In this document: positions 21,195 through 38,018 of the stretch, piece after piece
Numbering within the stretch: position 1 is the stretch's first letter
Layout of the letters: every line of letters starts with the position of its first letter
Origin: an uncultured Spartobacteria bacterium
Lineage (GTDB): Bacteria > Verrucomicrobiota > Verrucomicrobiia > Chthoniobacterales > Chthoniobacteraceae
Direction: 5' to 3'
Assembly: GCA_903882875.1 (NCBI GenBank)
Contig: CAIRYQ010000091.1
Location: 1-64,000, forward strand
Length of the DNA stretch: 64,000 bases
The notes under the pieces: model-generated
What the model was told of the DNA's origin: nothing
Database searches by the model: none
The model's input: only the letters and a program-made list of their open reading frames with translations
Program-made: the position numbers and the translations under genes

Positions 21195-22622
<1,428 letters not shown>

Positions 22623-23498
22623 TTAGCCGAGCGCCATTTGCGCCGTGGTGATTTCGAGAAGTTCGGTGGTGATGCCGGCCTGACGGACCTTGTTGTATTC
22701 GAGCGTGAGGTCCTTGATGAGCTGCTTCGCGTTGTCGGTCGCGTTCTTCATCGCGACCATGCGCGCGCTGTGCTCGGAAGCGCGGCTTTCGAGAACCATC
22801 TGATAGACTGCAAAATGGATGTAGTGCGGCACGAGATGCTCCAGCACGCCGCTCGCGCTTGGTTCAAAAAGATATTCGGTCGTATTCGCTGCGGCTTCGG
22901 TCTTAGTGCCGCCCATCTCGGTAATGTCGAAGTTTTGCACGGGCAAAATCACCTTCAGCGTCGGCTCCTGCCGCAGCGTGGATTTGAAGTCTGTGAAGGC
23001 CACGGTGACTTTGTCCACATCGCCCGAAACGAACTTCTCGATGCAGAACTTCGACGCCTGCTTGCATTCGAGAAACGTGAACGCCTCCTTCAGCTCAAAC
23101 TCCGCGGCGAGGTCGCGCTTGAGCCGTCCGAGATATTGCGCGCCCTTGCGCCCGACGGCAACGAAGGTGGTTTTCGCCGCGTCGAATTGGTTCAGTTCGC
23201 GGAGAAGGTTCGTATTCAGCGCGCCGCAGAGGCCCTTGTCGGTGGTGATGACGAGCACGAGTTCGCGCTTCACTTCCTTGCGCTCCTGCAGGAGCGGGTG
23301 CAGTTCCTCGCTGCCGCCGGCCTGTGCGAGAGCGCCCAAAATTTTCGCGAGTTCTTCGGCGTAAGGACGGCCGCTGAGCGCGCGCATCTGCGCCTTGCGC
23401 ATCTTCGAGGCAGCGACCATCTGCATCGCCTTCGTGATTTGCGATGTGTTCTTTACCGACTTGATACGTCGGCGGATGTCGCGGGTGTTCGCGGCCAT
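22623..23498 (-). CDS. atpG: ATP synthase F1 gamma subunit
   Basis: 291 aa. The N-terminal helix DIRRRIKSVKNTSQITKAMQ and the C-terminal helix NATDNAKQLIKDLTLEYNKV form the rotating coiled-coil shaft. VITTDKGLCGALNTNLLRE is the conserved central segment. It links the c-ring to catalysis in the alpha-beta head. Only 12 bp separate it from atpA upstream. Confidence 0.95.
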   Translation of the reverse strand: MAANTRDIRRRIKSVKNTSQITKAMQMVAASKMRKAQMRALSGRPYAEELAKILGALAQAGGSEELHPLLQERKEVKRELVLVITTDKGLCGALNTNLLRELNQFDAAKTTFVAVGRKGAQYLGRLKRDLAAEFELKEAFTFLECKQASKFCIEKFVSGDVDKVTVAFTDFKSTLRQEPTLKVILPVQNFDITEMGGTKTEAAANTTEYLFEPSASGVLEHLVPHYIHFAVYQMVLESRASEHSARMVAMKNATDNAKQLIKDLTLEYNKVRQAGITTELLEITTAQMALG

Positions 23499-23510
23499 GG
23501 TCGGTTTCGG

Positions 23511-25037
23511 TTAGCGCCAGCCCTGCTTGAATTCCGCGACGGCATCCTTGAGCGCGGCCGCGTTTGCGTCGTTGATTTCCGGCTTGTCGCGCAGGCCCGC
23601 GAGCACGGCTTCCTTGCGCGTGCTGAGGTAGTCTTGGAATTTCATCTGGAATTCCTTCACGCGATCCACGGGCACGTCGTCGAAGTGGTTGTTCATCACC
23701 GCCCACAGCGTCGCGCACTGGAGTTCGACGGGCAGCGGGTTGTATTGCTGCTGCTTGAAAATTTCCACGATGCGCTGGCCGCGGTCGAGCAGTGCCTTGG
23801 TTGCCGCGTCGAGGTCGCTGCCGAACTGCGCGAACGCCGCGAGTTCGCGGTATTGCGCCAACATACCTTTGATTTTTCCGGCGACCTGCTTCATCGCCTT
23901 CACCTGCGCGGCGGAACCCACGCGGCTGACGGAGAGACCGACGGACACTGCCGGGCGGATGCCTTGGTAGAAGAGATCCGTTTCGAGGTAAATCTGGCCG
24001 TCGGTGATCGAAATCACGTTTGTCGGAATGTAGGCCGAAACGTCGCCGGCCTGCGTCTCGATGATCGGCAGTGCGGTGAGCGAGCCGTTGCCGCTCGCCT
24101 CGTTCACACGCGCGCTGCGTTCGAGCAGGCGGCTGTGAAGATAGAAAACGTCGCCGGGATACGCCTCACGGCCCGAGGGGCGCTTGAGGAGCAATGAGAC
24201 TTGGCGGTAGGCGACGGCCTGCTTCGAGAGATCGTCGAACACGATCAGCGCGTCCATGCCGTTGTCCATGAACCATTCGCCCATCGAGGCTCCCGCGAAC
24301 GGCGCGAGATACTGCATGGACGCGGTGTCCGAGGCCGTGGCAACGACGACGATGGTGTATTGCATCGCGCCGGTTTCTTCGAGCACCGCGATGTTGCGCG
24401 CGACGTTCGACTGCTTCTGGCCGATGGCGACGTAGATCGAATAAAGCGGACGGAAGCCAGCCTTGCCTTCGTTGGCCTTGTTGATGCGGCCCTGGTTGAT
24501 GATGGCGTCAATCGCGATGGTCGTCTTGCCCGTCGCACGGTCGCCGATGATCAGTTCGCGCTGGCCGCGGCCAATCGGGATCATCGCGTCAATCGCCATG
24601 ATGCCCGTCTGCACGGGCTGGCTCACCGATTTGCGTTTGATGATGCCGGGCGCGATTTTTTCCACCGGGTAATGCGCGGTAGCCTCGATGGGGCCCTTGC
24701 CGTCCACCGGCTGACCGAGCGTGTTCACCGCGCGACCGAGCAGGCCTTTGCCGACCGGCACGGAAAGCAGACGGCCTGTGGTCTTCACCTCAGAACCTTC
24801 GACGACGCCCTTGTCGTCGCCGAGAAGCACTGCGCCGACTTCGTTTTCTTCGAGGTTGAGCGCGAGGCCATAGACGCCGCCGGGGAATTCCAGCATTTCG
24901 TTGAGCATCACGTCGCTCAGCCCTTCGATTTTCGCGACGCCGTCGCCGACTTCACGGACGGTGCCGACGTTGGACTTGGCGGTGCTGGTTTTGAGGCCGG
25001 CGATTTTGGATTCGAGGTCTTGCAGGATGCTGCTCAT
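23511..25037 (-). CDS. atpA: ATP synthase F1 alpha subunit
   Basis: 508 aa, usual length. The nucleotide-binding loop is GDRATGKT (about 170), where most homologues have GDRQTGKT, a minor change outside the key Lys and Thr. [20 protein letters not shown] and [10 protein letters not shown], with the catalytic arginine finger, are present. It forms the non-catalytic sites of the F1 head. It follows atpH by 36 bp. Confidence 0.96.
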
Positions 25038-25073
25038 GGCTTTGGTAGATTTGGAAAAGGTTGGGGTGAAAAA

Positions 25074-25472
25074 TTACGCGGCGAGGTCATTCGCGAGTCG
25101 GTCGAGGCGGCTGCGGACGCTGGCGTCCACGACATCGCTGCCGACCTGGATGCGGAGCCCGCCGATGAGCGCGGGGTTCGTCTTGAATTCAGTCGTCACA
25201 TCAGCGCCGTATTTTGCGCGGATCGTGTTGGTGGTCGCCGTCTTTTCCGCAGCTTCGAGTTCCGACGCGCTCTCGATGATCGCATGGCGGCGCGCCGTTT
25301 CGAGACGGATGAGGCGGGCGAACTCCTTCAACACGCCGATGTATTGGCGGGGCTTCGCGCGGATGACGGTGTCCGTGACAGTGCCCACCTTCGCAGCGTC
25401 CAGCGCGCCATTTGTGAAGCTCTCACGGAATAGCTGCTTGGAAAGTTTGCGGGCTTCTTTGTTCAGTTTCAT
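25074..25472 (-). CDS. atpH: ATP synthase F1 delta subunit, unusually short
   Basis: 132 aa against the usual 175-185. The C-terminal delta signature is clear (NPALIGGLRIQVGSDVVDAS then VRSRLDRLANDL). The N-terminal helical bundle is shortened by about 45 residues; it starts MKLNKEARKLSKQLFRESFT and lacks the typical segment that follows. Position between atpF and atpA and the C-terminal motif make the identity firm. Delta joins the peripheral stalk to the top of the alpha-beta head through the part that is shortened here. Confidence 0.88.
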   Translation of the reverse strand: MKLNKEARKLSKQLFRESFTNGALDAAKVGTVTDTVIRAKPRQYIGVLKEFARLIRLETARRHAIIESASELEAAEKTATTNTIRAKYGADVTTEFKTNPALIGGLRIQVGSDVVDASVRSRLDRLANDLAA

Positions 25473-25511
25473 CGCGGACGGATGGAGAAATTGAGCGGAT
25501 TGCGAATGCGG

Positions 25512-26069
25512 TTACGCGGCGAGTTCCTTGTTCGCGTCGGCCGTGATCTTCTGCTGGTCGGCGGAAGTGAGCACCTTGCCCGTGACCTTCGCCGTGGTGT
25601 CCACGATGAGGCGGGAAAGTTCTTTCTTCAGCTCGGCCATGAGGCGCTTCTGCTCGGCCTCGCCAGCTTCGCGGGCCTTGGCGATGATCTCGGCGACCTG
25701 CTGCACGGCGCGCTGATTTTCACGTTCGGAAACCTGCTTTGCCGCAGCGCGCGTCTCCTCGATGATCTTCGTCGCGTCGGCATTCGCCTTCGCAAGAATC
25801 GTCTCGGCGCTCTTCTGCGCATCGGCGAGCTGGCTCTTGATTTTATCCGCATTCTCCAGCCCCTCGGCGATGCGCTTGCGGCGCTCTTCGAGCATGGCGA
25901 GCACCGGCTTGTAGGCAAAGCGGTTCAGCAGGAACGCGACGATCGAGAAGCTGATGACCTGGCAGAGAAATGCCCACGGGTTCCAGCCAAACTGTTCGAG
26001 CGTTTCCTTGACGCCACCTTTCTCCGCAGCGGCAGGCGCTGCATTGGCGAGCAGAAGATAGAGGTTCAT
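25512..26069 (-). CDS. atpF: ATP synthase F0 b subunit
   Basis: 185 aa. One membrane helix lies near the N-terminus (about 33-52, WAFLCQVISFSIVAFLLNRF). A long charged helix rich in Ala, Glu and Lys follows and would dimerise as the peripheral stalk. A short hydrophobic stretch (MNLYLLLANAAPAAAEKGG) precedes the membrane helix and could be a signal-like leader. The family is variable in sequence, so identity also rests on gene order. Confidence 0.93.
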   Translation of the reverse strand: MNLYLLLANAAPAAAEKGGVKETLEQFGWNPWAFLCQVISFSIVAFLLNRFAYKPVLAMLEERRKRIAEGLENADKIKSQLADAQKSAETILAKANADATKIIEETRAAAKQVSERENQRAVQQVAEIIAKAREAGEAEQKRLMAELKKELSRLIVDTTAKVTGKVLTSADQQKITADANKELAA

Positions 26070-26415: not shown

Positions 26416-27411
26416 TCAGTGGGCGTGGCCCTCGTCTCCGTGTTCGCCGTGTTCCTCGTGATGCTCGCAGATGAGCAGCGTGAAGACCGAGGTCAGCAGC
26501 ATGAAGACGAGCGCCTGCACGAGGCCGACGAGGAGTTCGAGAAAGTAGAATGGCACGGGAATCAGCCACCCGAGCGAAGGCACGAGCTGCTGCATGGATT
26601 CCAGCGTGGTCTCACCGGCGAAGATGTTGCCGAAAAGACGGAAGCTCAATGACACCGGACGGAATGCGATCGAGATCAGTTCCAGCACGCCGACCATCGC
26701 GAAAATCACGATCATGAACACTTTCATGAAGCCCTGCGACTCGCCCTTCGGCGCGAAGATGTGCTTCACCACGCCGACCGGGCCGTTTTCCTTCAGCGCC
26801 CAGATGATCCACCACACAAAGAATGTCAGCGCCATCGCCGAGGTCATGTTCAGGTCGGCATTGCCGCCGCGCAGCAGTGGGCGCTCGACGTGCGTGAATG
26901 CGTGCGGTGCCGACGGGTCGTAGTGCGAACTCCAGCCGATGGTGCCCACGCCGGGCAGCAGGCCGAACCAGTTCGTCGCGACGATGAAAATGAAGATGGT
27001 CGCGAAGAACCAGAACATGTGCTTCACGAGCTTCGGCCCGAGGATGCCTCCGAGGAAATTTTCCAGCCCCTCGACGACGAACTCCCAGAAATTCTGCCCG
27101 CCCGACGGCACTGCCTTCGCGTTGCGCATCGCTGCGCGCGCGCCCCAGATGATCAGCAGCGCGACGACCCACGTGACGATCATCGAGTTGTTGATCACAC
27201 CGCCCCAAATCTTTGGCGCTGCCGTCGGCAAGCCGTGTTCCTCTGCATGTGCGGCAGGAGCCGCGCCGTGGCCCGTCGCAGCAGATCCGGCGTGATCGCT
27301 TGCAAATGCTTCCGGAGCGGCGAATGCGAGCACCATTCCGAGCAGCACGACGAACACCGCCGCGAGGGAGCCGTGGTTTTTTCCGAGTGTGCTGAAAGAT
27401 GATGGTTTCAT
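26416..27411 (-). CDS. atpB: ATP synthase F0 a subunit with N-terminal leader and His-rich tail
   Basis: 331 aa from the ATG at 27411, which gives MKPSSFSTLGKNHGS before a hydrophobic signal-like helix. An Ala/His-rich linker follows (about 40-65). The usual five-helix core then begins. SLSFRLFGN carries the essential arginine that faces the c-ring glutamate. The C-terminus ends in about 16 residues that are mostly His, Glu and Gly. Long N-terminal extensions occur in several Gram-negative groups; the His-rich tail is less common. It is the first gene of the operon. No atpI precedes it. Confidence 0.93.
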   Translation of the reverse strand: MKPSSFSTLGKNHGSLAAVFVVLLGMVLAFAAPEAFASDHAGSAATGHGAAPAAHAEEHGLPTAAPKIWGGVINNSMIVTWVVALLIIWGARAAMRNAKAVPSGGQNFWEFVVEGLENFLGGILGPKLVKHMFWFFATIFIFIVATNWFGLLPGVGTIGWSSHYDPSAPHAFTHVERPLLRGGNADLNMTSAMALTFFVWWIIWALKENGPVGVVKHIFAPKGESQGFMKVFMIVIFAMVGVLELISIAFRPVSLSFRLFGNIFAGETTLESMQQLVPSLGWLIPVPFYFLELLVGLVQALVFMLLTSVFTLLICEHHEEHGEHGDEGHAH

Positions 27412-27556
27412 TGCGTGCGCTTCACCCGCAGACGATCGCATGACACACAGCTGCACATTTTGCGAAACGGGGAGACGCAAATGCGCGCGGTGTCAGACCG
27501 CTCACAGGGCGAAAATGGGCGCACAGAAAAGGCCACGATTCGGCATCACGCAAGAA

Positions 27557-27578
27557 CTTTGTGAAATTTTTCACAAAG
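27557..27578. promoter_or_regulatory. Perfect CRP/FNR-type palindrome upstream of the atp operon
   Basis: A perfect 10+2+10 palindrome contains TGTGA-N6-TCACA (27560-27575), the consensus half-sites of the CRP/FNR family. It lies about 150-165 bp upstream of atpB in a 210-bp gap. It also lies downstream of the response-regulator gene, where on the minus strand it is followed by TTCTT, so a terminator role is possible. The exact match to both half-sites and the spacing favours an operator. Confidence 0.6.
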
Positions 27579-27621
27579 TCCGAATCACCACTCCCAAGCG
27601 ACGTGCTGTCCGCCCTTCGCG

Positions 27622-28077
27622 CTACGTGCCGTCCGATGGCAATTCCACGATTTGGATCCAGTGCTTCTCCAACGTCTGAAGCGTGCCCACGATTGCCTCG
27701 AAGGTCACCGGCTTCACGATGTAGCTGTTCACGCCGAGGTCGTAGCTGCGGTAAACGTCCGCATCGTCCTTGGATGTGGTGAGCACGGCGATTGGGATGC
27801 GGCTGAGCGACGGCGTGTTCTTGATTTCTTTCAACACGGTGCGCCCGTCTTTCTTCGGCATGTTCAGGTCGAGAAGGATGAGCCCCGGACGCGGTGCCTG
27901 GGCAGGCGGCGCAAATTTTCCGCGAGCTAGCAAATAATCCATGAGATCTTCGCCGTTTTCGACAAAACGCAGTTCGTTCAGCAGCCTCGCGTCCTTGAGT
28001 GCTTCGGCAGCGAGCAGGCGGTCGCTGGGAGCGTCGTCGGCCATGAGGATGGTGATGGGATTGGGTGCATTGTTCAT
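27622..28077 (-). CDS. Single-domain response regulator (Rcp1/CheY-like)
   Basis: 151 aa from the ATG at 28077. It is only a receiver domain. Asp14/Asp15 form the acidic pocket, Asp70 in LILLDLNMPKKDG is the phosphate acceptor, Thr101 follows AVLT, and Lys122 lies in IVKP. The LNMPKKDG form is typical of the Rcp1 group, which often pairs with phytochrome-like or hybrid kinases. No output domain and no kinase gene are nearby, so the partner is elsewhere. An ATG nine codons upstream (28104) is possible but less likely. Confidence 0.85.
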   Translation of the reverse strand: MNNAPNPITILMADDAPSDRLLAAEALKDARLLNELRFVENGEDLMDYLLARGKFAPPAQAPRPGLILLDLNMPKKDGRTVLKEIKNTPSLSRIPIAVLTTSKDDADVYRSYDLGVNSYIVKPVTFEAIVGTLQTLEKHWIQIVELPSDGT

Positions 28078-28104
28078 CGCGGAGATAGGGTGGAAAAGAT
28101 CCAC

Positions 28105-28453: not shown

Positions 28454-31069
28454 ATGAACACCATGCACACTCCGTCGCTCGCGCTGGCCGCGATGCTGGC
28501 AGCCACACCAGCATTTTCCGCAAATCCTCCGGCGCCCGATGCCGCGCCGATGCCGGCGAAAGGTGAGGCGACTCCGCTGATGAAGCAGACGCCGATGCTC
28601 TCGCCTGCGGATGAGCTGAAGACGATCCAATTGCCCGCGGGCTACCGGCTCGAACTCGTGCTGAGCGAGCCGGACATCAAGGAGCCGATGGCGATCGCGT
28701 TCGACGGCAACGGGCGGATGTATGTCGTCGAGATGCGGACGTACATGCAGGACATTGACGGCACGGGCGAACTCGATCCGAAGAGCCGTGTATCGCGTCA
28801 CGAGAGCACGAAGGGTGATGGCGTTTTCGACAAGCACACTGTTTTCGCCGACAACCTCGTCGTGCCGCGCATGGTGCTGCCGCTGCAGGATTCGGTGCTC
28901 ATCGGCGAGACGAACACGAATGACGTGAATGAATTTCGCGATACGAAGCACGACGGCGTGTCGGATCAAAAGAAGCCGTGGTATGAGGGCGGACCGCGTG
29001 GCGGAAACATGGAGCATCAGCCGAGCGGGCTCGTGTGGGCGATGGATAATTGGATCTACACGACGTACAACGCGTATCGGCTGCGGTGGAATCCGAAGGG
29101 CTCGACTTTGAAGGAACCGACTGCGCCGAACGGCGGGCAGTGGGGACTTTGCCAGGATGATTTTGGCAAGCCGTGGTTCTCGAACGCGGGCGGCGAAAAG
29201 GGCGTTTGGAATTTTCAGACGCATGTCGCGTACGGTGCGATCAATGTGCCGAGCCAGTGGGACGACTCGTGGATGACGGTGTGGCCGGCGGTCGGGATGT
29301 TCGACGTGCAGGGCGGCAAGAACCGGCATCGCGAGGACGGGACGCTGAATCATTTCACCGCGTCGTGCGGGCAGGAGATTTTCCGCGGCGACCGCCTGCC
29401 GGCGGAATTGCGCGGCAATGTGTTTTTGCCGGAGCCGGTCGGACGCATGATCCGGCGCGGCATCGTCGAGGTGAAGGACGGCGTCACCACGCTGAAAAAT
29501 CCGTATCCGGAGTCGGAGTTCATCCGCAGCATAGACCCGAATTTCCGTCCCGTGGACATGAAGACCGGGCCGGACGGCTGCCTCTACATCGTGGATGCGT
29601 ATCGCGGGATCATTCAGGAGGGGAACTGGGTGCGCGCGGGATCGTATTTGCGCCCGCAGGTCGAGCGATGGGGTCTGCAGAACAACACCAACCACGGGCG
29701 CGTGTGGCGGCTCGTGCACAAGGATTTCACACCCGGCCCGCAGCCGAAGATGCTCGATGAAAAATCCGAGCAGCTCGTCGCGCACCTTGAACATCCGAAT
29801 GGTTTCTGGCGCGACACCGCGCAGAAATTGCTCGTCGTGCGGCAGGATCAGTCGGTCGTCCCTGCGCTGCAAACAATGGCGCGCACGAGCAAAAATCCGC
29901 TCGCGCGGATGCACGCGATGTGGACGCTCGAAGGCCTCGGCGCGCTCGACGCGACGCTCGCGCGCGAAAAGCTGAAGGATGAAAATCCGCGCGTCCGCGA
30001 GAATGCGATTCGCGCGACGGAGACGCTGATCAAGGCGGGCGACAAGTCGCTCATCGCGGACATCACCGCGCTGGCGAACGATGCGGATCCGAACGTCGTC
30101 ATCCAGGTGATCGGCACGGCGAAGGTGCAGAATTTTCCCGACTGGGAAAAACTCGCGCAGCTCACGATCACCGCGAGCAAGTCGGCGGGCGTGCAGGAAA
30201 TCGGCAAGGCGCTCATCACCGTGCCGAAGCCGATGGACACGAATGTCTTCAGCAAGGAGCAGATCGTCGTGCTGAAAAAGGGCGAGGCCATTTACAAGGA
30301 GCTGTGCTTCGCGTGCCACGGGTTCGACGGCAAGGGCATGCCGATGCAGGGCAAGCCGGGCGTGACGATGGCGCCGCCATTCGCCGGATCGAAGACGATC
30401 GCCGGCCATCGCGACGGCCCGGTGCTCGTGCTGCTGCACGGCCTTGCGGGGCCGGTGAACGGCAAGACCTACGAGGCGCAGATGGTCTCGATGGCCACGA
30501 ACTCGGACGACTGGATCGCGTCCGTCGCGAGCTATGTGCGCAACAGCTTTGGCAACAGCGGAGCATTCGTGACGCCGGACGAAGTGAAACGCCTCCGCGT
30601 CGCGACGAAGGATCGCACGCAGCCTTGGACGCAGCAGGAACTCATGGACGCGCTGCCGAAGCCGCTGGGTGATTCCAAAAAGTGGAAGCTCACCGCGAGC
30701 GTGAATTCCGCCGGGTGCAGCGCCGCGATTGATGGCAACGCGACGACGCGCTGGGACACGCATGGCTCGCAGACGCCCGGCCAGTGGTTCCAGATCGAGC
30801 TGCCCGCCGAGACGGAAGTCGCCGGCGTGCGCCTCGACGCGGGCAAGTCCGCCAATGACTTTCCGCGCGGCTACAAGGTCGAGTTGAGCGCGGACGGCAC
30901 GACGTGGGGCAAGCCCGTCGCCGAGGGCAAGGGTGGCGGGACGATCACGGACATCCCGTTTGCGCCGGCGAAGGCGAAGTTCATCCGCATCACGCAGACC
31001 GGCGCGGTGCAGGGAAAATTCTGGAGCATCCACGAACTCTCGGTGCTGAAGTCGGGCGGGAAGCTGTGA
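28454..31069 (+). CDS. PVC-type haem-binding propeller protein with F5/8C domain
   Basis: 871 aa. A signal peptide (about 1-22) precedes a six-bladed propeller-like region related to sugar dehydrogenases (about 55-430; PAGYRLELVLSEPDIKEPMA at its start). Next come HEAT-type helical repeats (about 440-600), a cytochrome c motif CFACH (about 617) with MAPPF beyond it, and a C-terminal discoidin-like (F5/8 type C) domain (about 730-870). These modular proteins are typical of Planctomycetes and Verrucomicrobia and are thought to take part in periplasmic oxidation of carbohydrates. The F5/8C domain may bind glycans. It starts an 11-kb same-strand cluster of secreted PVC proteins. Confidence 0.87.
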   Translation: MNTMHTPSLALAAMLAATPAFSANPPAPDAAPMPAKGEATPLMKQTPMLSPADELKTIQLPAGYRLELVLSEPDIKEPMAIAFDGNGRMYVVEMRTYMQDIDGTGELDPKSRVSRHESTKGDGVFDKHTVFADNLVVPRMVLPLQDSVLIGETNTNDVNEFRDTKHDGVSDQKKPWYEGGPRGGNMEHQPSGLVWAMDNWIYTTYNAYRLRWNPKGSTLKEPTAPNGGQWGLCQDDFGKPWFSNAGGEKGVWNFQTHVAYGAINVPSQWDDSWMTVWPAVGMFDVQGGKNRHREDGTLNHFTASCGQEIFRGDRLPAELRGNVFLPEPVGRMIRRGIVEVKDGVTTLKNPYPESEFIRSIDPNFRPVDMKTGPDGCLYIVDAYRGIIQEGNWVRAGSYLRPQVERWGLQNNTNHGRVWRLVHKDFTPGPQPKMLDEKSEQLVAHLEHPNGFWRDTAQKLLVVRQDQSVVPALQTMARTSKNPLARMHAMWTLEGLGALDATLAREKLKDENPRVRENAIRATETLIKAGDKSLIADITALANDADPNVVIQVIGTAKVQNFPDWEKLAQLTITASKSAGVQEIGKALITVPKPMDTNVFSKEQIVVLKKGEAIYKELCFACHGFDGKGMPMQGKPGVTMAPPFAGSKTIAGHRDGPVLVLLHGLAGPVNGKTYEAQMVSMATNSDDWIASVASYVRNSFGNSGAFVTPDEVKRLRVATKDRTQPWTQQELMDALPKPLGDSKKWKLTASVNSAGCSAAIDGNATTRWDTHGSQTPGQWFQIELPAETEVAGVRLDAGKSANDFPRGYKVELSADGTTWGKPVAEGKGGGTITDIPFAPAKAKFIRITQTGAVQGKFWSIHELSVLKSGGKL

Positions 31070-31109
31070 TCTAAGCTGAGCGGCAATCGCCGCTACACTC
31101 CATGAAGCC

Positions 31110-34100
31110 ATGAAAGTCCGACAGACCTCCTCGTTTCTGAGTGCCGTGCTCGCCGCGGCAGCGGGCGCTGCGCCGGTTCCACCGGATCACGCGGAGCGGA
31201 TGACGAAGGGGCTGGTGATTTTTCAAAAGGAGATCGCGCCGCTGTTGAAGGAGCATTGCGTGAAGTGCCACGGCGGCGAGAAGACTAAGGCCGACCTGGA
31301 TCTCGTGACGCGAGAGGGGCTGCTCAAGGGCGGCGCGGACGGCGTGGATGTCGTGCCGTTCAGCGCCGCGGAGAGCAAGGTGATGAAGATGCTGCGGCAC
31401 GAGGAGGAGCCGCACATGCCGGAGAAAAAGCCGCGCCTGCCCGATGCGGCGATTGCGAAGTTTGCCGAGTGGATTGATGCGGGGGCGCCGTATTCCGAAC
31501 CGCTGATTGAAGGCCGCAAGCCCGCACGGGATCGCAGCGTGGTGACGGCGGAGGACCGGCAGTGGTGGGCGTTTCAGCCGCTGGCGAAGGTCGCGGTGCC
31601 GAGTGCTCGGGTCTCAGTGCTCAGTGCTCAGTCAAAGCAGCCACATCTGAGCACTACGCGCTGGGCAACGAGCACTAATCCTATTGACGCCTTTCTCGCC
31701 GTGAAGGCGGCGGAGAAAAAGCTCGCGCTCGCCGCGCCCGCGGATGCAGCGACGCTCGTGCGCCGCGCATTTCTCACGATTCACGGCGTGCCTCCGACGC
31801 CGGAGCAGATTGCGGCTTTTGAAAAGGACTTCGCCGTGAATCCGCAGTCCGCGATGGCTAAGCTTGCCGACGAATTGCTCGCCTCGCCGCGCTACGGCGA
31901 GCGGTGGGCGCGGCACTGGCTTGATGTCGCGCGCTTTGCGGAGTCGAGCGGCTTCGAGCACGACTATGATCGCGAGGGCGCGTTCCATTTCCGCGACTTC
32001 GTGATCAAGGCGTTGAACAGCGACATGCCTTACGATCAGTTTGTGCGCTGGCAGCTCGCTGGCGATGAGTTTGCGCCGGGCGATCCGCTCGCGCTCACGG
32101 CGACGGGATTCCTCGGTGCGGGAGTTTTTCCGACGCAGATCACGGCGAACGAAGTCGAGCGCACGCGCTACGACGCGATGGACGACATGCTTTCGACGAC
32201 CAGCTCGGCATTCCTCGGGCTGACGGTCGGCTGCGCGCGCTGCCACGATCACAAATACGATCCGATCCCGACGCGCGACTACTACCGGATGCTGAGCACG
32301 TTCACGACGACGACGCGCAGCGTGATCGATCTCGATCTCGATTCCGAGAAGAATGCGCCGAAGCTGCGCGAGTGGATGGTGCTGCGCGAACCGCTCGCGG
32401 CGGATCTCGCGAAGCATGAAAAGGAGCTGCACGGGAAATTCGACGACTGGCTCACGTCTGGCGCGGAGATGCCGAAGGGCGCGACGTGGAGCGTGCTCAC
32501 GATGAGCGACACGAAGTCGAAAGCGGGCGCGACATTTACGCGGCTCGATGACGGTTCGTATCTCGCAGGCGGCACGAACGGCGGCGAGGACACCTACACA
32601 TTCACCGCGAAGACGCCGCTGCGGCGTATCACGGGGCTGCGACTCGATGCGCTCGCTCATCCCTCGATGAAAAAGGGCGGGCCGGGACGCGCGGACAACG
32701 GCAATTTTGCGTTGAGCAAAATCCGCGTGTTCGCAAAGGCGGCATCCGGCGGAGAGGAGACGGAGGTGAAGCTCGCGAAGGCGGTCGCGGACTTCGAGCA
32801 GAACAAGGCGAGCCTGAGCATCGCGTCGTCACTCGACGACAATCCGAAGACGGGCTGGGCGGTGGATCCGCAGTTTGGGAAGGATCACTCGGCGGTGTTC
32901 ACGTTCGCGCAGCCGGTGGATTTCGAGGGCGGTGCGACGCTGCGCGTGGTGCTGGAGTTTGCGGTGAACAGGCAGCATAACATCGGGCGTCCGCGACTGT
33001 CGGTGATCGTGGACGTGGAGCCGCGGGTCGGTGGCGAGACGCTGCCTGCGGCCGTGGTCGCGGCATTTGATGCGTTGCAAAAAAAGAATGCGCTCAACGA
33101 GAAACAGCGCGTCGCACTTTTCGACTGGTGGAAGCGGCGCGACGTAGGCTGGCGCGCGCTCGATGCGAAACTCGCCGCGCACGACGCGAAGAGGCCGGTG
33201 AACACGACAAAAGTCCTCGTGTGCGCGGAGGGCTACAAGCCGCTCGTGATGCACTCGCAGGGTGCGAATTTTTTCGAGGAGACGTTTGTGCTGAAGCGCG
33301 GCAACACGGAACTGAAGGACGGCGTGGCGACGCAGAGTTTCCTGCAGGTGCTCATGCCGTCGGCGGATGCAACGCAGCAGTGGCTTTGGAAACCGCAGCC
33401 GGGCGCGCAGTATTCCGGACGCAGGCGTTCGCTGGCGAACTGGATCACGGATGTCGAGCACGGCGCGGGTGCGCTCGCGGCGCGCGTGATCGTGAACCGC
33501 GTGTGGCAGCATCACTTCGGGCGCGGGCTGGTCGCGACGCCGAATGACTTCGGGCGCACGGGCACGCTGCCGTCGAATCCGGAATTGCTCGACTGGCTCG
33601 CCGGCGAGCTCATCCGCGGCGGCTGGAAGCTCAAGCCGCTGCACAAGCTGATCATGACAAGCGCCGCGTGGCAGCAGAGCAGCGCGCGCGACGCTGCGAA
33701 GGAAGCGGCGGATCCCGCTAATGACACTTTCTCGCGACGCGTGCCGCAGCGACTCGAGGGCGAGGCATTGCGCGACTCGATGCTCGCGGTCAGCGGCGTG
33801 CTGGATGCGACGATGTTCGGCCCTGGCACGAAGGATGAGCGCAGCAAACGGCGGAGCATTTATTTCACGATCAAGCGCAGCCAGCTCATCGGCTCGATGG
33901 TGGCATTTGATCTGCCTGAGCCGCTCGTGAGCCAGGGCGCGCGCCCGACGACGACGGTCGCGCCGCAGGCGCTGATGCTGATGAACGGGCCGCAGGTGCA
34001 CGAGTGGGCGGAGGCCTTTGCAGCGCGAATGGAAACGGAGACGGGCGACGATGCGCGGATCGCGCGTGCGTATCTGATCGCGCTCGGCCGTGCGCCGCGC

Positions 34101-34247
34101 GCGCAGGAAGCGGAGTCGGCGCGTGCTTTCGTCGCGGCGCAGACGGCGAGTTACACCGCCGAGGGAAAACCGAACGCCGCGCACCTCGCGCTCGCGGATT
34201 TTGCGCAGGTGATTTTCGGGCTGAATGATTTCGCGTATGCGCAATAG
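31110..34247 (+). CDS. PSD1-DUF1549-DUF1553 protein (Planctomycete cytochrome C)
   Basis: 1045 aa with a signal peptide. A PSD1 cytochrome c domain has CVKCHGG (about 50-56). DUF1549 follows (about 190-400; SPRYGERWARHWLDVARFAE and CARCHDHKYDPI, a second CxxCH). A beta-rich insert lies at about 430-640 and DUF1553 at about 770-1020 (RVWQHHFGRGLVATPNDFGR). The family is PVC-specific and nearly always sits next to a DUF1501 gene, as here (30 bp downstream). The pair is believed to act in polysaccharide use, but the chemistry is unknown. At about residues 164-190 a short repeat element is inserted in frame (31601-31676). Confidence 0.88.
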   Translation: MKVRQTSSFLSAVLAAAAGAAPVPPDHAERMTKGLVIFQKEIAPLLKEHCVKCHGGEKTKADLDLVTREGLLKGGADGVDVVPFSAAESKVMKMLRHEEEPHMPEKKPRLPDAAIAKFAEWIDAGAPYSEPLIEGRKPARDRSVVTAEDRQWWAFQPLAKVAVPSARVSVLSAQSKQPHLSTTRWATSTNPIDAFLAVKAAEKKLALAAPADAATLVRRAFLTIHGVPPTPEQIAAFEKDFAVNPQSAMAKLADELLASPRYGERWARHWLDVARFAESSGFEHDYDREGAFHFRDFVIKALNSDMPYDQFVRWQLAGDEFAPGDPLALTATGFLGAGVFPTQITANEVERTRYDAMDDMLSTTSSAFLGLTVGCARCHDHKYDPIPTRDYYRMLSTFTTTTRSVIDLDLDSEKNAPKLREWMVLREPLAADLAKHEKELHGKFDDWLTSGAEMPKGATWSVLTMSDTKSKAGATFTRLDDGSYLAGGTNGGEDTYTFTAKTPLRRITGLRLDALAHPSMKKGGPGRADNGNFALSKIRVFAKAASGGEETEVKLAKAVADFEQNKASLSIASSLDDNPKTGWAVDPQFGKDHSAVFTFAQPVDFEGGATLRVVLEFAVNRQHNIGRPRLSVIVDVEPRVGGETLPAAVVAAFDALQKKNALNEKQRVALFDWWKRRDVGWRALDAKLAAHDAKRPVNTTKVLVCAEGYKPLVMHSQGANFFEETFVLKRGNTELKDGVATQSFLQVLMPSADATQQWLWKPQPGAQYSGRRRSLANWITDVEHGAGALAARVIVNRVWQHHFGRGLVATPNDFGRTGTLPSNPELLDWLAGELIRGGWKLKPLHKLIMTSAAWQQSSARDAAKEAADPANDTFSRRVPQRLEGEALRDSMLAVSGVLDATMFGPGTKDERSKRRSIYFTIKRSQLIGSMVAFDLPEPLVSQGARPTTTVAPQALMLMNGPQVHEWAEAFAARMETETGDDARIARAYLIALGRAPRAQEAESARAFVAAQTASYTAEGKPNAAHLALADFAQVIFGLNDFAYAQ
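31601..31676. repeat. Nested inverted-repeat element inside the PSD1 gene
   Basis: AGTGCTCG (31602-31609) pairs with CGAGCACT (31669-31676). Inside these, AGTGCTCAG occurs twice in overlap (31616-31631) and pairs with CTGAGCACT (31647-31655). The element is in frame and encodes a Ser/Thr-rich stretch between the PSD1 and DUF1549 domains, where family members have only a short linker before NPIDAF. It looks like a small palindromic element accepted by a tolerant linker. Confidence 0.75.
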
Positions 34248-34277
34248 CGGACGCAGCGCACTAACTTCCATCCGAAC

Positions 34278-35708
34278 ATGAACTCCTTTCAACACCCTCT
34301 ATCACGTCGCCAGCTTCTCCAGCGTGCGGGCGGCGGATTTGGAATGCTTGCGCTCACGTCGTTGCTCGATCGTGCGGGCGCGGCTTCGCTGAATCCGCTC
34401 GCGCCGAAATCACCGCCGCTGCGTGCGCGGGCGAAATCTGTGATCTGGATTTTCACGAATGGCGGGCCGAGCCAGGTGGACACTTGGGACTACAAGCCGG
34501 AGCTCGCGAAGCGCGACGGGCAGCCGCTCGAGGGCTTTGACACGAAGACGGGATTTTTCCCCGCGTCGGTCGGGCCGCTGATGAAGTCACCGTTCGAGTG
34601 GCAGCAGCACGGCAAGAGCGGGACTTGGACGAGCGGGCTCTTCCCGCATCTCTCGCAGCATGTGGACAAGATGGCGTTCATCCACTCGTGCTGGACGCAG
34701 TCGAACAACCACTCGCCCGCGCTTTTCATGATCAATACGGGACAGACGCGCATGGGCTATCCGTGCGTCGGGTCGTGGGTGACATACGGTCTCGGCTCGA
34801 CGAGCGATTCGCTGCCGGCATTTGTCGTGATGAGCGATCCGAAAAATCGCGGCCTGCCCAAAGGGACCGCGCTGAACTGGGGCGCGGGATTTTTGCCGAG
34901 CGTGTATCAGGGCACGTGGCTGCGTCCGCAAGGCGAGCCGATTGATAATTTGAGGCGCCTGTCAAATCTCAACGATGAGCGCCAGCGCGCGCAGCTCGAC
35001 CTTCTCGCGAAGTTGAACCGCGCATCGCTCGGCGACAGCGCGGTGGAGAGCGAACTGTCGGCGCGTATCGAGAGCTTCGAGCTGGCGTATCGGATGCAGA
35101 CGGCGGCGCCGGAGGCGTTCGATGTGTCGAAGGAGCCAGAGCATGTGAAGAAACTCTACGGCCTGGATCAGCCGCACTGCGCGCACATCGCTTCGCAGTG
35201 CATGATGGCGCGGCGCATGGTCGAGCGCGGCGTGCGCTTTGTGCAAATCTACAGCGGCGGGATGGAAAACCAGCAGTCGTGGGACTGCCACGCGGATCTC
35301 GTGGGCAACCACACCGGCTTCGCATCCGAGACCGATCAACCGGTCGCCGCGCTGCTCGCGGACCTCGAACAGCGCGGGCTTTTGAAAGACACGCTTGTCG
35401 TGTGGGGCGGAGAATTCGGACGGCTGCCCGTGTCGCAGAAGGGCGGCAAGCCGGGGCGCGATCACAATCCGCACGCATTCACGGTGTGGCTCGCGGGCGG
35501 CGGCGTGAAGGGCGGCTTCCACTACGGCGAGACGGACGAGATCGGGCACAAGGCCGTGGTGGATCGTGTGGGTGTCCACGATTTGCACGCGACTTTGCTG
35601 CACGCACTCGGGCTCGATCACGAGAAGCTGACGTTCAAATTCCAAGGGCTCGACCAGCGGCTCACGGGTGTGGAGAAGTCGCGCGTGGTGCAGGAAGTTT
35701 TTGCGTAG
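34278..35708 (+). CDS. DUF1501 protein, Tat-exported
   Basis: 476 aa. The N-terminus carries SRRQLLQRAGGGFGMLAL, a twin-arginine signal. The DUF1501 core is of the alkaline-phosphatase/sulfatase fold: WIFTNGGPSQVDTWDYKP, DHNPHAFTVWLAGGGVKGG and a terminal GLDQRLTGV segment are typical. The catalytic state of the family is not established. It follows its PSD1 partner by 30 bp and is probably co-transcribed. Confidence 0.87.
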   Translation: MNSFQHPLSRRQLLQRAGGGFGMLALTSLLDRAGAASLNPLAPKSPPLRARAKSVIWIFTNGGPSQVDTWDYKPELAKRDGQPLEGFDTKTGFFPASVGPLMKSPFEWQQHGKSGTWTSGLFPHLSQHVDKMAFIHSCWTQSNNHSPALFMINTGQTRMGYPCVGSWVTYGLGSTSDSLPAFVVMSDPKNRGLPKGTALNWGAGFLPSVYQGTWLRPQGEPIDNLRRLSNLNDERQRAQLDLLAKLNRASLGDSAVESELSARIESFELAYRMQTAAPEAFDVSKEPEHVKKLYGLDQPHCAHIASQCMMARRMVERGVRFVQIYSGGMENQQSWDCHADLVGNHTGFASETDQPVAALLADLEQRGLLKDTLVVWGGEFGRLPVSQKGGKPGRDHNPHAFTVWLAGGGVKGGFHYGETDEIGHKAVVDRVGVHDLHATLLHALGLDHEKLTFKFQGLDQRLTGVEKSRVVQEVFA

Positions 35709-35852
35709 CAATCAAGGTTGGCGCGGCGAGACGTGGATGTCCTCGTTTGTCGCGATCATATGTGACGGAGAATTCAGGTCGCATTCGCCCCTTTTGGCGC
35801 TATTCCTTCTGCAACGGCCTGCCTCACAGTCCGCCCAATCATCCCCGAAGCC

Positions 35853-38018
35853 ATGAAACGTCTCATCCTTTCCGCCTCGATCGCAGCCTGCTCCATCCTC
35901 GTGTGGACGCACCCGGCCTCCGGTGCGAAGCCCAACAAGAAACAGCAGTCCCCGACACCTGCGCCCGTGGCGGCAAACAATGCAAGCCAGCCCGATGCGA
36001 CGCCGCTGAAGTCCGAGCTGCCTTCGCCGTGGCGCACTTGGAGCGATCCGCAGGGGAACAAGATCGAGGCCGCATTTTGCTCGCTCTACGGAAATATCCT
36101 CACGGTGCAGACGCGCGACGGGAAGACGGTGCAGATGTATCTCATGAACCTCGTGCCCGAGGATCGCGTGTTCGCCGCGGACTACATGAAGCGGCAGCGC
36201 GCGAATTCATTTGCGGACGACTACGTGAAGAAGGCGGCGTATCAGATTGATTACCTCATCGGTTCGACACTGGTGGCGAACAAGCAGAAGTTCAATGGCA
36301 ACGCGACGGAGGAGCAGTATGTGCGGCGCATCTACCTCGACGCCGTGGGCCGCATTCCGACCGCGGAGGAGTCGTCCGCATTTCTCGCCGACAAGGCACC
36401 GGACAAGCGCGCGAAGCTTGTGGACAAGCTGCTCTATTCGCCGGGCTACACGATGCACATGTACAATTGGATGGGCGACATGCTGCGGCTGAAGGACACG
36501 TTTGGCAAAGGCGTGCCTGCCTTCACATTTCAGGACTGGCTGAAGGATCAGCTGCACGCGGACCGTCCGTGGGATTCGCTCGTGCGCACGATGCTCACCG
36601 CGCAGGGCAAGGTGTGCGAAAACGGCGCGACCGGCTTCCTGCTCTACGACGCGCAGATGCCGCTCGACGGGGTGTCGAACCTGCTCACGACTTTCCTCGG
36701 CGCGAATGTCGCGTGCGCGCAGTGCCACGACCACCCGCTCGCGGACTGGAAGCAGCGCGAATTTTACCAGATGGCCGCGTTCTTCGGCGCGAGCGACGGC
36801 ATTGATGAAAAGATGCTCGGAGCCGGCAAGAAGCTCGCGAAAAATGGAGGCAAGGGAACGCCGGGACTGAACAAGGGGCTGGTGCAAAAAATCGCGAGTG
36901 CAAACGCGTATCGTCTGGAGGATACGAACAAGCAGCACCTCACTTTTCCAAAGGACTTCAAGGGCAACGATTCCAGTGTGAAGCCCGGCGCGCCGGTCAC
37001 GCCCACGCTCATCTCGTGGAGCAAGGCGGACGCGAAGAACCCCGCCTACAAAATCAACACTGCGAACCCGGCGCAGCTCCGCGAGGAGTTCGCGAGGTGG
37101 ATGACGCATCCGAACAACCCGCGCTTTGCCGAGAACATCGCGAACCGCGTGTGGAAAAAGGTGTTCGGCCTCGCGGTGCAGGAGCCGGTGTCGGACATTG
37201 ACGATCTCTCGAAGGCGAGCAACCCCGCGCTGCTCGCGCACCTCGCGACGATTATCAAGGCCGGGCGTTTCGACCTGCGCGAGTTCCAGCGCGTGCTGTT
37301 CAATTCGCAGACTTACCAGCGTGCCGCAAGCGCGTCGCCGGATTTGGAAAAAGGGCCGTATCTTTTCCCCGGTCCGCTCGTGCGTCGGCTGACGGCCGAG
37401 CAGGTGTGGGATAGCCTCGTGGTGCTCAGCGTCGGTCCGGATGTGGACAACATGATCCTGCGCCGCGGCGAAGACGAGAAGCTCATGTCGCTGCCTGGAA
37501 ATTCGCCGACGGCTGAGAATTTCAAATACGTGATTGACCGGCTGGGATCTTCCGGTGCGGCGATGGGCGGCGGGAAAAAAGGCGGCGGCGGCTCGGAAAA
37601 GGGCCTGCTCGCCGAATACCAGGGCGGCAAGCCGCAGCAGCGTTTCGGCATGATCCTCGCGCGTGCGAGCGAGCTGCCGCAGCCCGCGGCGGAGACACAT
37701 TTTCTGCGGCTCTTCGGCCAGAGCGACCGTCTCGTCGCCGATTCAAACACGACCGACGGCAGCGTGCCTCAGGCGCTCATGCTGATGAATGGCGGCGCGA
37801 GCAAGCTCATCACCGACACGAATTGCGCCGCAGTCGCCGCCGCTGAAAAGGCCGCTTCCACCGATGCAAAAGTGGACTCGCTCTACCTCGCATTCCTCGG
37901 CCGCAAGCCGACCGACGAGGAGCGCCCCGTCGCGACGCAGGCGATGACGACCGGCCTCGGCATGAGCGACCTCGCATGGGCGCTCGTGAACACGCGCGAG
38001 TTTCTTTTTGTGCAATGA
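35853..38018 (+). CDS. SHD1-DUF1549-DUF1553 secreted protein
   Basis: 721 aa with a signal peptide (about 1-24). After a Pro/Ala-rich linker an SHD1-like domain (about 60-110; RTWSDPQGNKIEAAFCS) takes the place of the PSD1 cytochrome. DUF1549 (about 125-310) retains CAQCHDHPLADW, a CxxCH haem-type site. DUF1553 covers about 410-720 (FAENIANRVWKKVFGLAV). A Gly/Lys-rich stretch near 570 is low in complexity. It lies upstream of the second DUF1501 gene (51 bp gap) and repeats the pair arrangement at 31110-35708. Confidence 0.86.
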   Translation: MKRLILSASIAACSILVWTHPASGAKPNKKQQSPTPAPVAANNASQPDATPLKSELPSPWRTWSDPQGNKIEAAFCSLYGNILTVQTRDGKTVQMYLMNLVPEDRVFAADYMKRQRANSFADDYVKKAAYQIDYLIGSTLVANKQKFNGNATEEQYVRRIYLDAVGRIPTAEESSAFLADKAPDKRAKLVDKLLYSPGYTMHMYNWMGDMLRLKDTFGKGVPAFTFQDWLKDQLHADRPWDSLVRTMLTAQGKVCENGATGFLLYDAQMPLDGVSNLLTTFLGANVACAQCHDHPLADWKQREFYQMAAFFGASDGIDEKMLGAGKKLAKNGGKGTPGLNKGLVQKIASANAYRLEDTNKQHLTFPKDFKGNDSSVKPGAPVTPTLISWSKADAKNPAYKINTANPAQLREEFARWMTHPNNPRFAENIANRVWKKVFGLAVQEPVSDIDDLSKASNPALLAHLATIIKAGRFDLREFQRVLFNSQTYQRAASASPDLEKGPYLFPGPLVRRLTAEQVWDSLVVLSVGPDVDNMILRRGEDEKLMSLPGNSPTAENFKYVIDRLGSSGAAMGGGKKGGGGSEKGLLAEYQGGKPQQRFGMILARASELPQPAAETHFLRLFGQSDRLVADSNTTDGSVPQALMLMNGGASKLITDTNCAAVAAAEKAASTDAKVDSLYLAFLGRKPTDEERPVATQAMTTGLGMSDLAWALVNTREFLFVQ

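Follow-up and report, generated by a model that had tools for sequence, protein, structure and literature searches.

A putative operator of the NADH-sensing protein Rex upstream of the ATP synthase operon in an uncultured Spartobacteria bacterium

Which regulator, if any, acts on the palindrome that precedes the ATP synthase operon of an uncultured, Chthoniobacter-like Spartobacteria bacterium? The palindrome lies in a 64,000-nucleotide stretch of contig CAIRYQ010000091.1 (the window; all unprefixed coordinates refer to it). It was originally predicted to be the binding site of a CRP/FNR-family protein: a TGTGA-N6-TCACA motif inside a perfect 22-bp palindrome, through which the operon would come under cAMP-, oxygen- or redox-dependent control.

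The palindrome sits ~148 bp upstream of the start of atpB (ATG 27411–27409, minus strand), the operon's first gene, encoding F0 subunit a (26419..27411, minus strand). The minus-strand genes that follow (21195..26069) are, judging by their translations, presumably atpF (25512–26069), atpH (25074–25472), atpA (23511–25037), atpG (22623–23498) and atpD (21195–22601). A pattern search of the window finds TGTGA-N6-TCACA exactly where it was predicted, as the 16-mer TGTGAAATTTTTCACA at 27560–27575. The perfection of the 22-mer (27557–27578) needs some revision: there is indeed an inverted repeat, with 11-bp arms (ACTTTGTGAAA at 27556–27566 and TTTCACAAAGT at 27569–27579) and a 2-nt centre, but the central TT (27567–27568) breaks the symmetry, and 20 of the 22 positions are symmetric. 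Within the repeat lies the palindromic 18-mer TTGTGAAAAATTTCACAA (27559..27576, minus strand), which matches TTGTGAA-N4-TTCACAA with 0 mismatches and is the predicted Rex operator (ROP) of the minus-strand atp operon. Two further features of the region were recorded. A second inverted repeat (GATTCGG at 27537–27543, CCGAATC at 27580–27586) is placed unevenly around the ROP, and is not apparent in the flanks of relatives. Beside the atp region, positions 28454–38018 hold a run of what we take, from translations only, to be Planctomycete/Verrucomicrobia-type PSD1/DUF1501-like and cytochrome c-like secreted proteins.

The source genome (G000) comprises 5.78 Mb and is 96% complete. At the 63% GC of the window, a genome of this size is expected to contain ~0.0025–0.003 copies of the full 18-mer TTGTGAA-N4-TTCACAA; five perfect copies were observed. 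The copy before atpB is widely kept: it is perfect at 26 of 30 related loci, and three of the four loci that lack it belong to genomes without Rex (G042, G044, G052). In a partly overlapping set of 79 GTDB atpB loci, the best match within the 500 bp upstream of atpB has a bimodal distribution, with 18 loci showing a perfect site, 23 one mismatch, one two mismatches, and 37 at least four; these counts retain a handful of records whose titles name other phyla (e.g., L154, L163, L172, L189, L191), picked up by the atpB search. A reversed control pattern never scored fewer than three mismatches at the same 79 loci. The 2.0 bits reached by the half-site in the alignment are partly a product of construction (rows were picked by pattern), while the 30- and 79-locus counts are unbiased. 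Given the low expectation, the five perfect copies and the retention of the site before atpB in most relatives, the palindrome is real and not a product of chance.

The gene upstream encodes a response-regulator receiver protein (27622..28104, minus strand), and the palindrome, which begins 42 nt past its stop codon and could form an RNA hairpin (z = -2.55), might be its transcription terminator. However, the stem is A+T-rich, a U run is absent, and a terminator scan of the region reports none there. Moreover, the response regulator is found at this place only in close relatives and lies upstream of atpB in only four loci; at the others the upstream gene differs and may have either orientation, yet the palindrome stays before atpB. 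Since the response-regulator gene is not conserved there, we give its termination at the palindrome next to no credence. Binding by an activator or repressor of the CRP/FNR family at TGTGA-N6-TCACA has in its favor that the CRP core is literally present. Yet the conserved sequence exceeds that core (TTGTGAA/TTCACAA) and tracks Rex, and the site reads as a CRP site because the Rex operator TTGTGAA-N4-TTCACAA happens to contain TGTGA-N6-TCACA. The genome itself also speaks against CRP/FNR: no match to the CRP-type helix-turn-helix PF13545 passes the Pfam cut-off in this 96%-complete genome (the one weak match is a GntR/UTRA protein), and the cNMP-binding domains fall in kinases (one histidine kinase, two protein kinases), an MscS-type channel and an Fe-S protein, with no CRP/FNR transcription factor detected. 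We therefore regard a CRP/FNR regulator as very improbable. (A protein encoded at L118, G000:C3:24415–25008, has an unusual combination of two cNMP-binding domains, several 4Fe-4S domains and one 2Fe-2S domain.)

What the genome does contain is a single clear Rex gene, detected by profile search (PF06971, 3e-17, at C18:63960). Its product carries, beside the PF06971 winged helix, the NAD(H)-binding Rossmann domain PF02629 above cut-off; it exceeds the cut-offs of NCBIfam Rex models, aligns at ~1e-40 with solved Rex chains (PDB), and keeps the LRKDL and GxGxxG motifs. The site before atpB is an exact match to TTGTGAANNNNTTCACAA, the consensus of S. avermitilis and S. aureus Rex. These sequence data indicate that the protein recognizing the palindrome is almost certainly the NADH-sensing Rex and not CRP/FNR. 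The original prediction thus stands in so far as it proposed an operator through which the atp operon is placed under redox control, and gives way on the protein, for which a Rex-type regulator is substituted.

Site and regulator also occur together across genomes. Of the 42 genomes that carry the site before atpB, 41 have a detected Rex; of the 37 that lack it, five do and 32 do not (Fisher p 1e-15, a value that ignores ancestry; the AtpB tree provides only three well-supported independent contrasts, none of them contrary). The exceptions are thus five genomes with Rex and no atpB site, and one with the site and no detected Rex; incomplete drafts may be behind some of them. Among 57 relatives, there are 190 sites with at most one mismatch, versus eight for the control pattern. 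All 41 Rex-bearing genomes in this set have at least two sites, and 12 of the 16 genomes without Rex have at most one (rows summed by hand).

A scan for the same site elsewhere in the source genome, a check raised with the original prediction, was fruitful. Five perfect sites and one single-mismatch site were found, while the reversed control pattern gave none with one mismatch or fewer. Besides the site before atpB, perfect sites precede (i) a run of nuo genes (a fused nuoEF, then G, H, I, J, L, M and N) headed by a small lipoprotein-like gene, (ii) an alternative complex III operon, (iii) a polyprenyl diphosphate synthase gene, and (iv) a short non-coding gene on contig C78, which looked like an orphan at first. 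The alternative complex III operon encodes a multihaem ActA, ActB, an NrfD-like ActC, ActD (PF11821) and an ActE cytochrome, and continues with proteins without Pfam matches, two COX1 proteins, and FixO-like and cytochrome c subunits. The single-mismatch site, on contig C47, lies before a non-coding element that is near-identical to that on C78. Gene order suggests that each target operon forms one transcript. A further site, with two mismatches and within a coding region on contig C34, was discounted as chance. Much the same set is seen in the type strain Chthoniobacter flavus Ellin428, apparently of the same family as the source genome, where perfect sites lie before atpB, nuoB, nuoD, the nuoEF unit, actA and polyprenyl synthase (genes named from translations).

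Alignment of the atpB upstream regions points to a promoter immediately beyond the ROP. In all 26 family loci, the site is followed by TTG (TTGC in 24), 17 bp, and a hexamer rich in T, often TTTTCT or TTTTAT. The 17-bp spacing stays constant while the distance from the operator to the putative -35 varies between 5, 7, 16 and 17 nt, and it is on this account that we read TTG-N17-hexamer as a promoter. In the window, the predicted -35 is TTGCGT (27548..27553, minus strand; 5 nt downstream of the ROP) and the predicted -10 is TTTTCT (27525..27530, minus strand; 17-bp spacer), from which transcription would start near 27518 with a leader of ~107 nt. A search of the region for sigma-70 promoters came up empty, since the conserved elements (TTGCNN-N17-TTTTNT) are far from consensus; it was the comparison across genomes that exposed the promoter. 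On these coordinates the operator would span approximately -58 to -41, with its center near -49.5, just upstream of the -35. Most other targets likewise show the arrangement operator-N5/7-TTGC, the exception being the polyprenyl synthase, where the operator lies near the start codon. Upstream of atpB at L051 and L054, 17 and 16 nt, respectively, separate the operator from the promoter instead of 5–7, which places the operator 11–12 bp, or about one helical turn, farther away. The size of this shift hints at a dependence on helical phase.

How would Rex act from such a position? We propose a mechanism in which sequence supplies the site, its recurrence before respiratory operons, its retention upstream of atpB, the gene for Rex and the co-occurrence of site and regulator, and characterized Rex proteins supply binding, release by NADH and repression. 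At a low NADH/NAD+ ratio, a Rex dimer would bind the operator beside the -35 of the atp promoter and keep the operon repressed. Once NADH builds up, Rex would bind it and leave the DNA, as characterized Rex proteins do on NADH binding (PMC5419742, PMC5355995), and ATP synthase would be expressed. Derepression would extend at the same time to complex I, to alternative complex III and cytochrome oxidase, and to the prenyl synthase, which probably makes the quinone tail; the cell would thereby build respiratory capacity, and NADH would be re-oxidized. That the palindrome is a Rex operator through which Rex represses the atp operon at low NADH/NAD+, with relief by NADH and jointly with the other respiratory targets, is in our judgment highly probable.

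The direction of control deserves separate consideration, given that a site upstream of the -35, shifted by 11–12 bp in places, suits occlusion less well than overlap with the core promoter would. Where the operator stands a fixed distance upstream of the -35, Rex might bind and yet serve as an activator, or act in both directions. The 5 or 7 nt between operator and TTGC at the atpB, nuo and act promoters, and the addition of about one helical turn (11–12 nt) in two relatives, agree with such a role. On the other hand, expression of atpI, nuoA and cydA is higher in an S. avermitilis rex mutant (PMC5355995), the polyprenyl synthase has its operator near the start codon, a position typical of repressors, and activation at low NADH would, by our reasoning, run in the wrong direction for NADH homeostasis. 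Activation is accordingly a reading to which we assign a low probability. On the strength of the S. avermitilis mutant data, repression is the favored direction, with a contact-based or activating role possible.

The non-coding elements on C78 and C47 appear to be members of a small-RNA family. They are near-identical and consist of the operator, a TTGC promoter, GUUCUGGGGGGAAC, a 15-bp G+C-rich hairpin and a U run; GUUCUGGGGGGAAC itself forms a nearly invariant hairpin with a 5-bp stem and a GGGG loop. The predicted RNA of ~60 nt on C78 lies at L249:247–304 (G000:C78:44146–44203, plus strand), and its counterpart at L250:398–455 (G000:C47:45297–45354, minus strand), both with a Rex site; further copies in the source genome occur at G000:C37:6891, C78:19713 and C80:3646. 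In 14 aligned sequences, 12 of the 15 pairs of the terminator hairpin are changed on both sides and 100% of cells are paired, far above shuffled and slid controls, although the choice of rows with equal geometry favors the pairing percentage. A small ORF (~46 codons) running across the element was rejected because of this base-pair covariation in the terminator stem. A covariance model finds the family in 53 of 57 relatives, with one to nine copies each; it is missing from two 0.9-Mb genomes and two others. Some copies are in tandem (e.g., three ~320 bp apart at G002:C6). The small RNA matches no Rfam 15 family above the gathering threshold, with chance-like matches to other families only, and the 64-kb window contains neither a copy of it nor any Rfam match. 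Separately, ~40 nt beside the C78 copy (L020:5425–5470) match many places in relatives and resemble part of a tRNA gene, possibly as the remnant of an integration event.

Rex sites accompany few members of this family. Among the 87 copies with enough upstream sequence, seven have a site with at most two mismatches (L249, L250, L251, L253, L254, L255 and L257), in each case just upstream of the -35; they come from six genomes, all of the window's genus. The best site of the remaining copies has at least three mismatches, and in nearly all at least five. It is somewhat more probable than an even chance that, in the window's genus, Rex controls the whole oxidative-phosphorylation chain plus one or two small-RNA copies, and that NADH status in this way reaches further mRNAs.

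The proposed switch is of a known kind, here in a new lineage and with new predicted targets: ordinary in type, useful in detail. In the open-access literature, we found nothing relevant on Rex in combination with Verrucomicrobia or with alternative complex III. What looked like a puzzling "CRP site" becomes a testable switch by which NADH would govern almost all of the respiratory chain, alternative complex III joins the predicted Rex targets, and the small-RNA family, which nearly all examined genomes of the order carry, would add a second regulatory layer. Chthoniobacter flavus, which is cultured and has the same sites, would allow the hypothesis to be tested.

The closest known system is that of Streptomyces avermitilis, in which Rex control of the atp operon (atpIBEFHAGDC) is proven (Liu et al. 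2017, PMC5355995), a precedent for the redox-type control originally suggested for the present operon. The two systems share the consensus TTGTGAANNNNTTCACAA, a Rex-type regulator, ATP synthase and complex I as targets, and a site in the atp promoter. They differ in phylum and in that the S. avermitilis atpI site, TTGTGATACGGTTCACGA, is imperfect, whereas the atpB site of the window is perfect and lies just upstream of the -35; the source genome also adds alternative complex III, an oxidase, the polyprenyl synthase and a small RNA as predicted targets. The Rex operator of Staphylococcus aureus, TTGTGAAW4TTCACAA (Pagels et al. 2010, PMC2883068), is identical in form, down to the A/T spacer of the window's atpB site, but precedes anaerobically induced genes rather than respiratory ones. 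CRP/FNR sites share the core pentamers and their spacing, and differ in the outer conserved bases, which here are of the Rex type. Finally, a small RNA under Rex repression is known from Bacillus subtilis (RoxS/RsaE; Durand et al. 2017, PMC5419742). Like the new family, RoxS has a Rex operator at its promoter, which gives Rex post-transcriptional reach; it is nevertheless unrelated, with C-rich regions in place of the invariant G-rich hairpin, and its operator lies downstream of the transcription start, while that of the new small RNA lies upstream of the -35.
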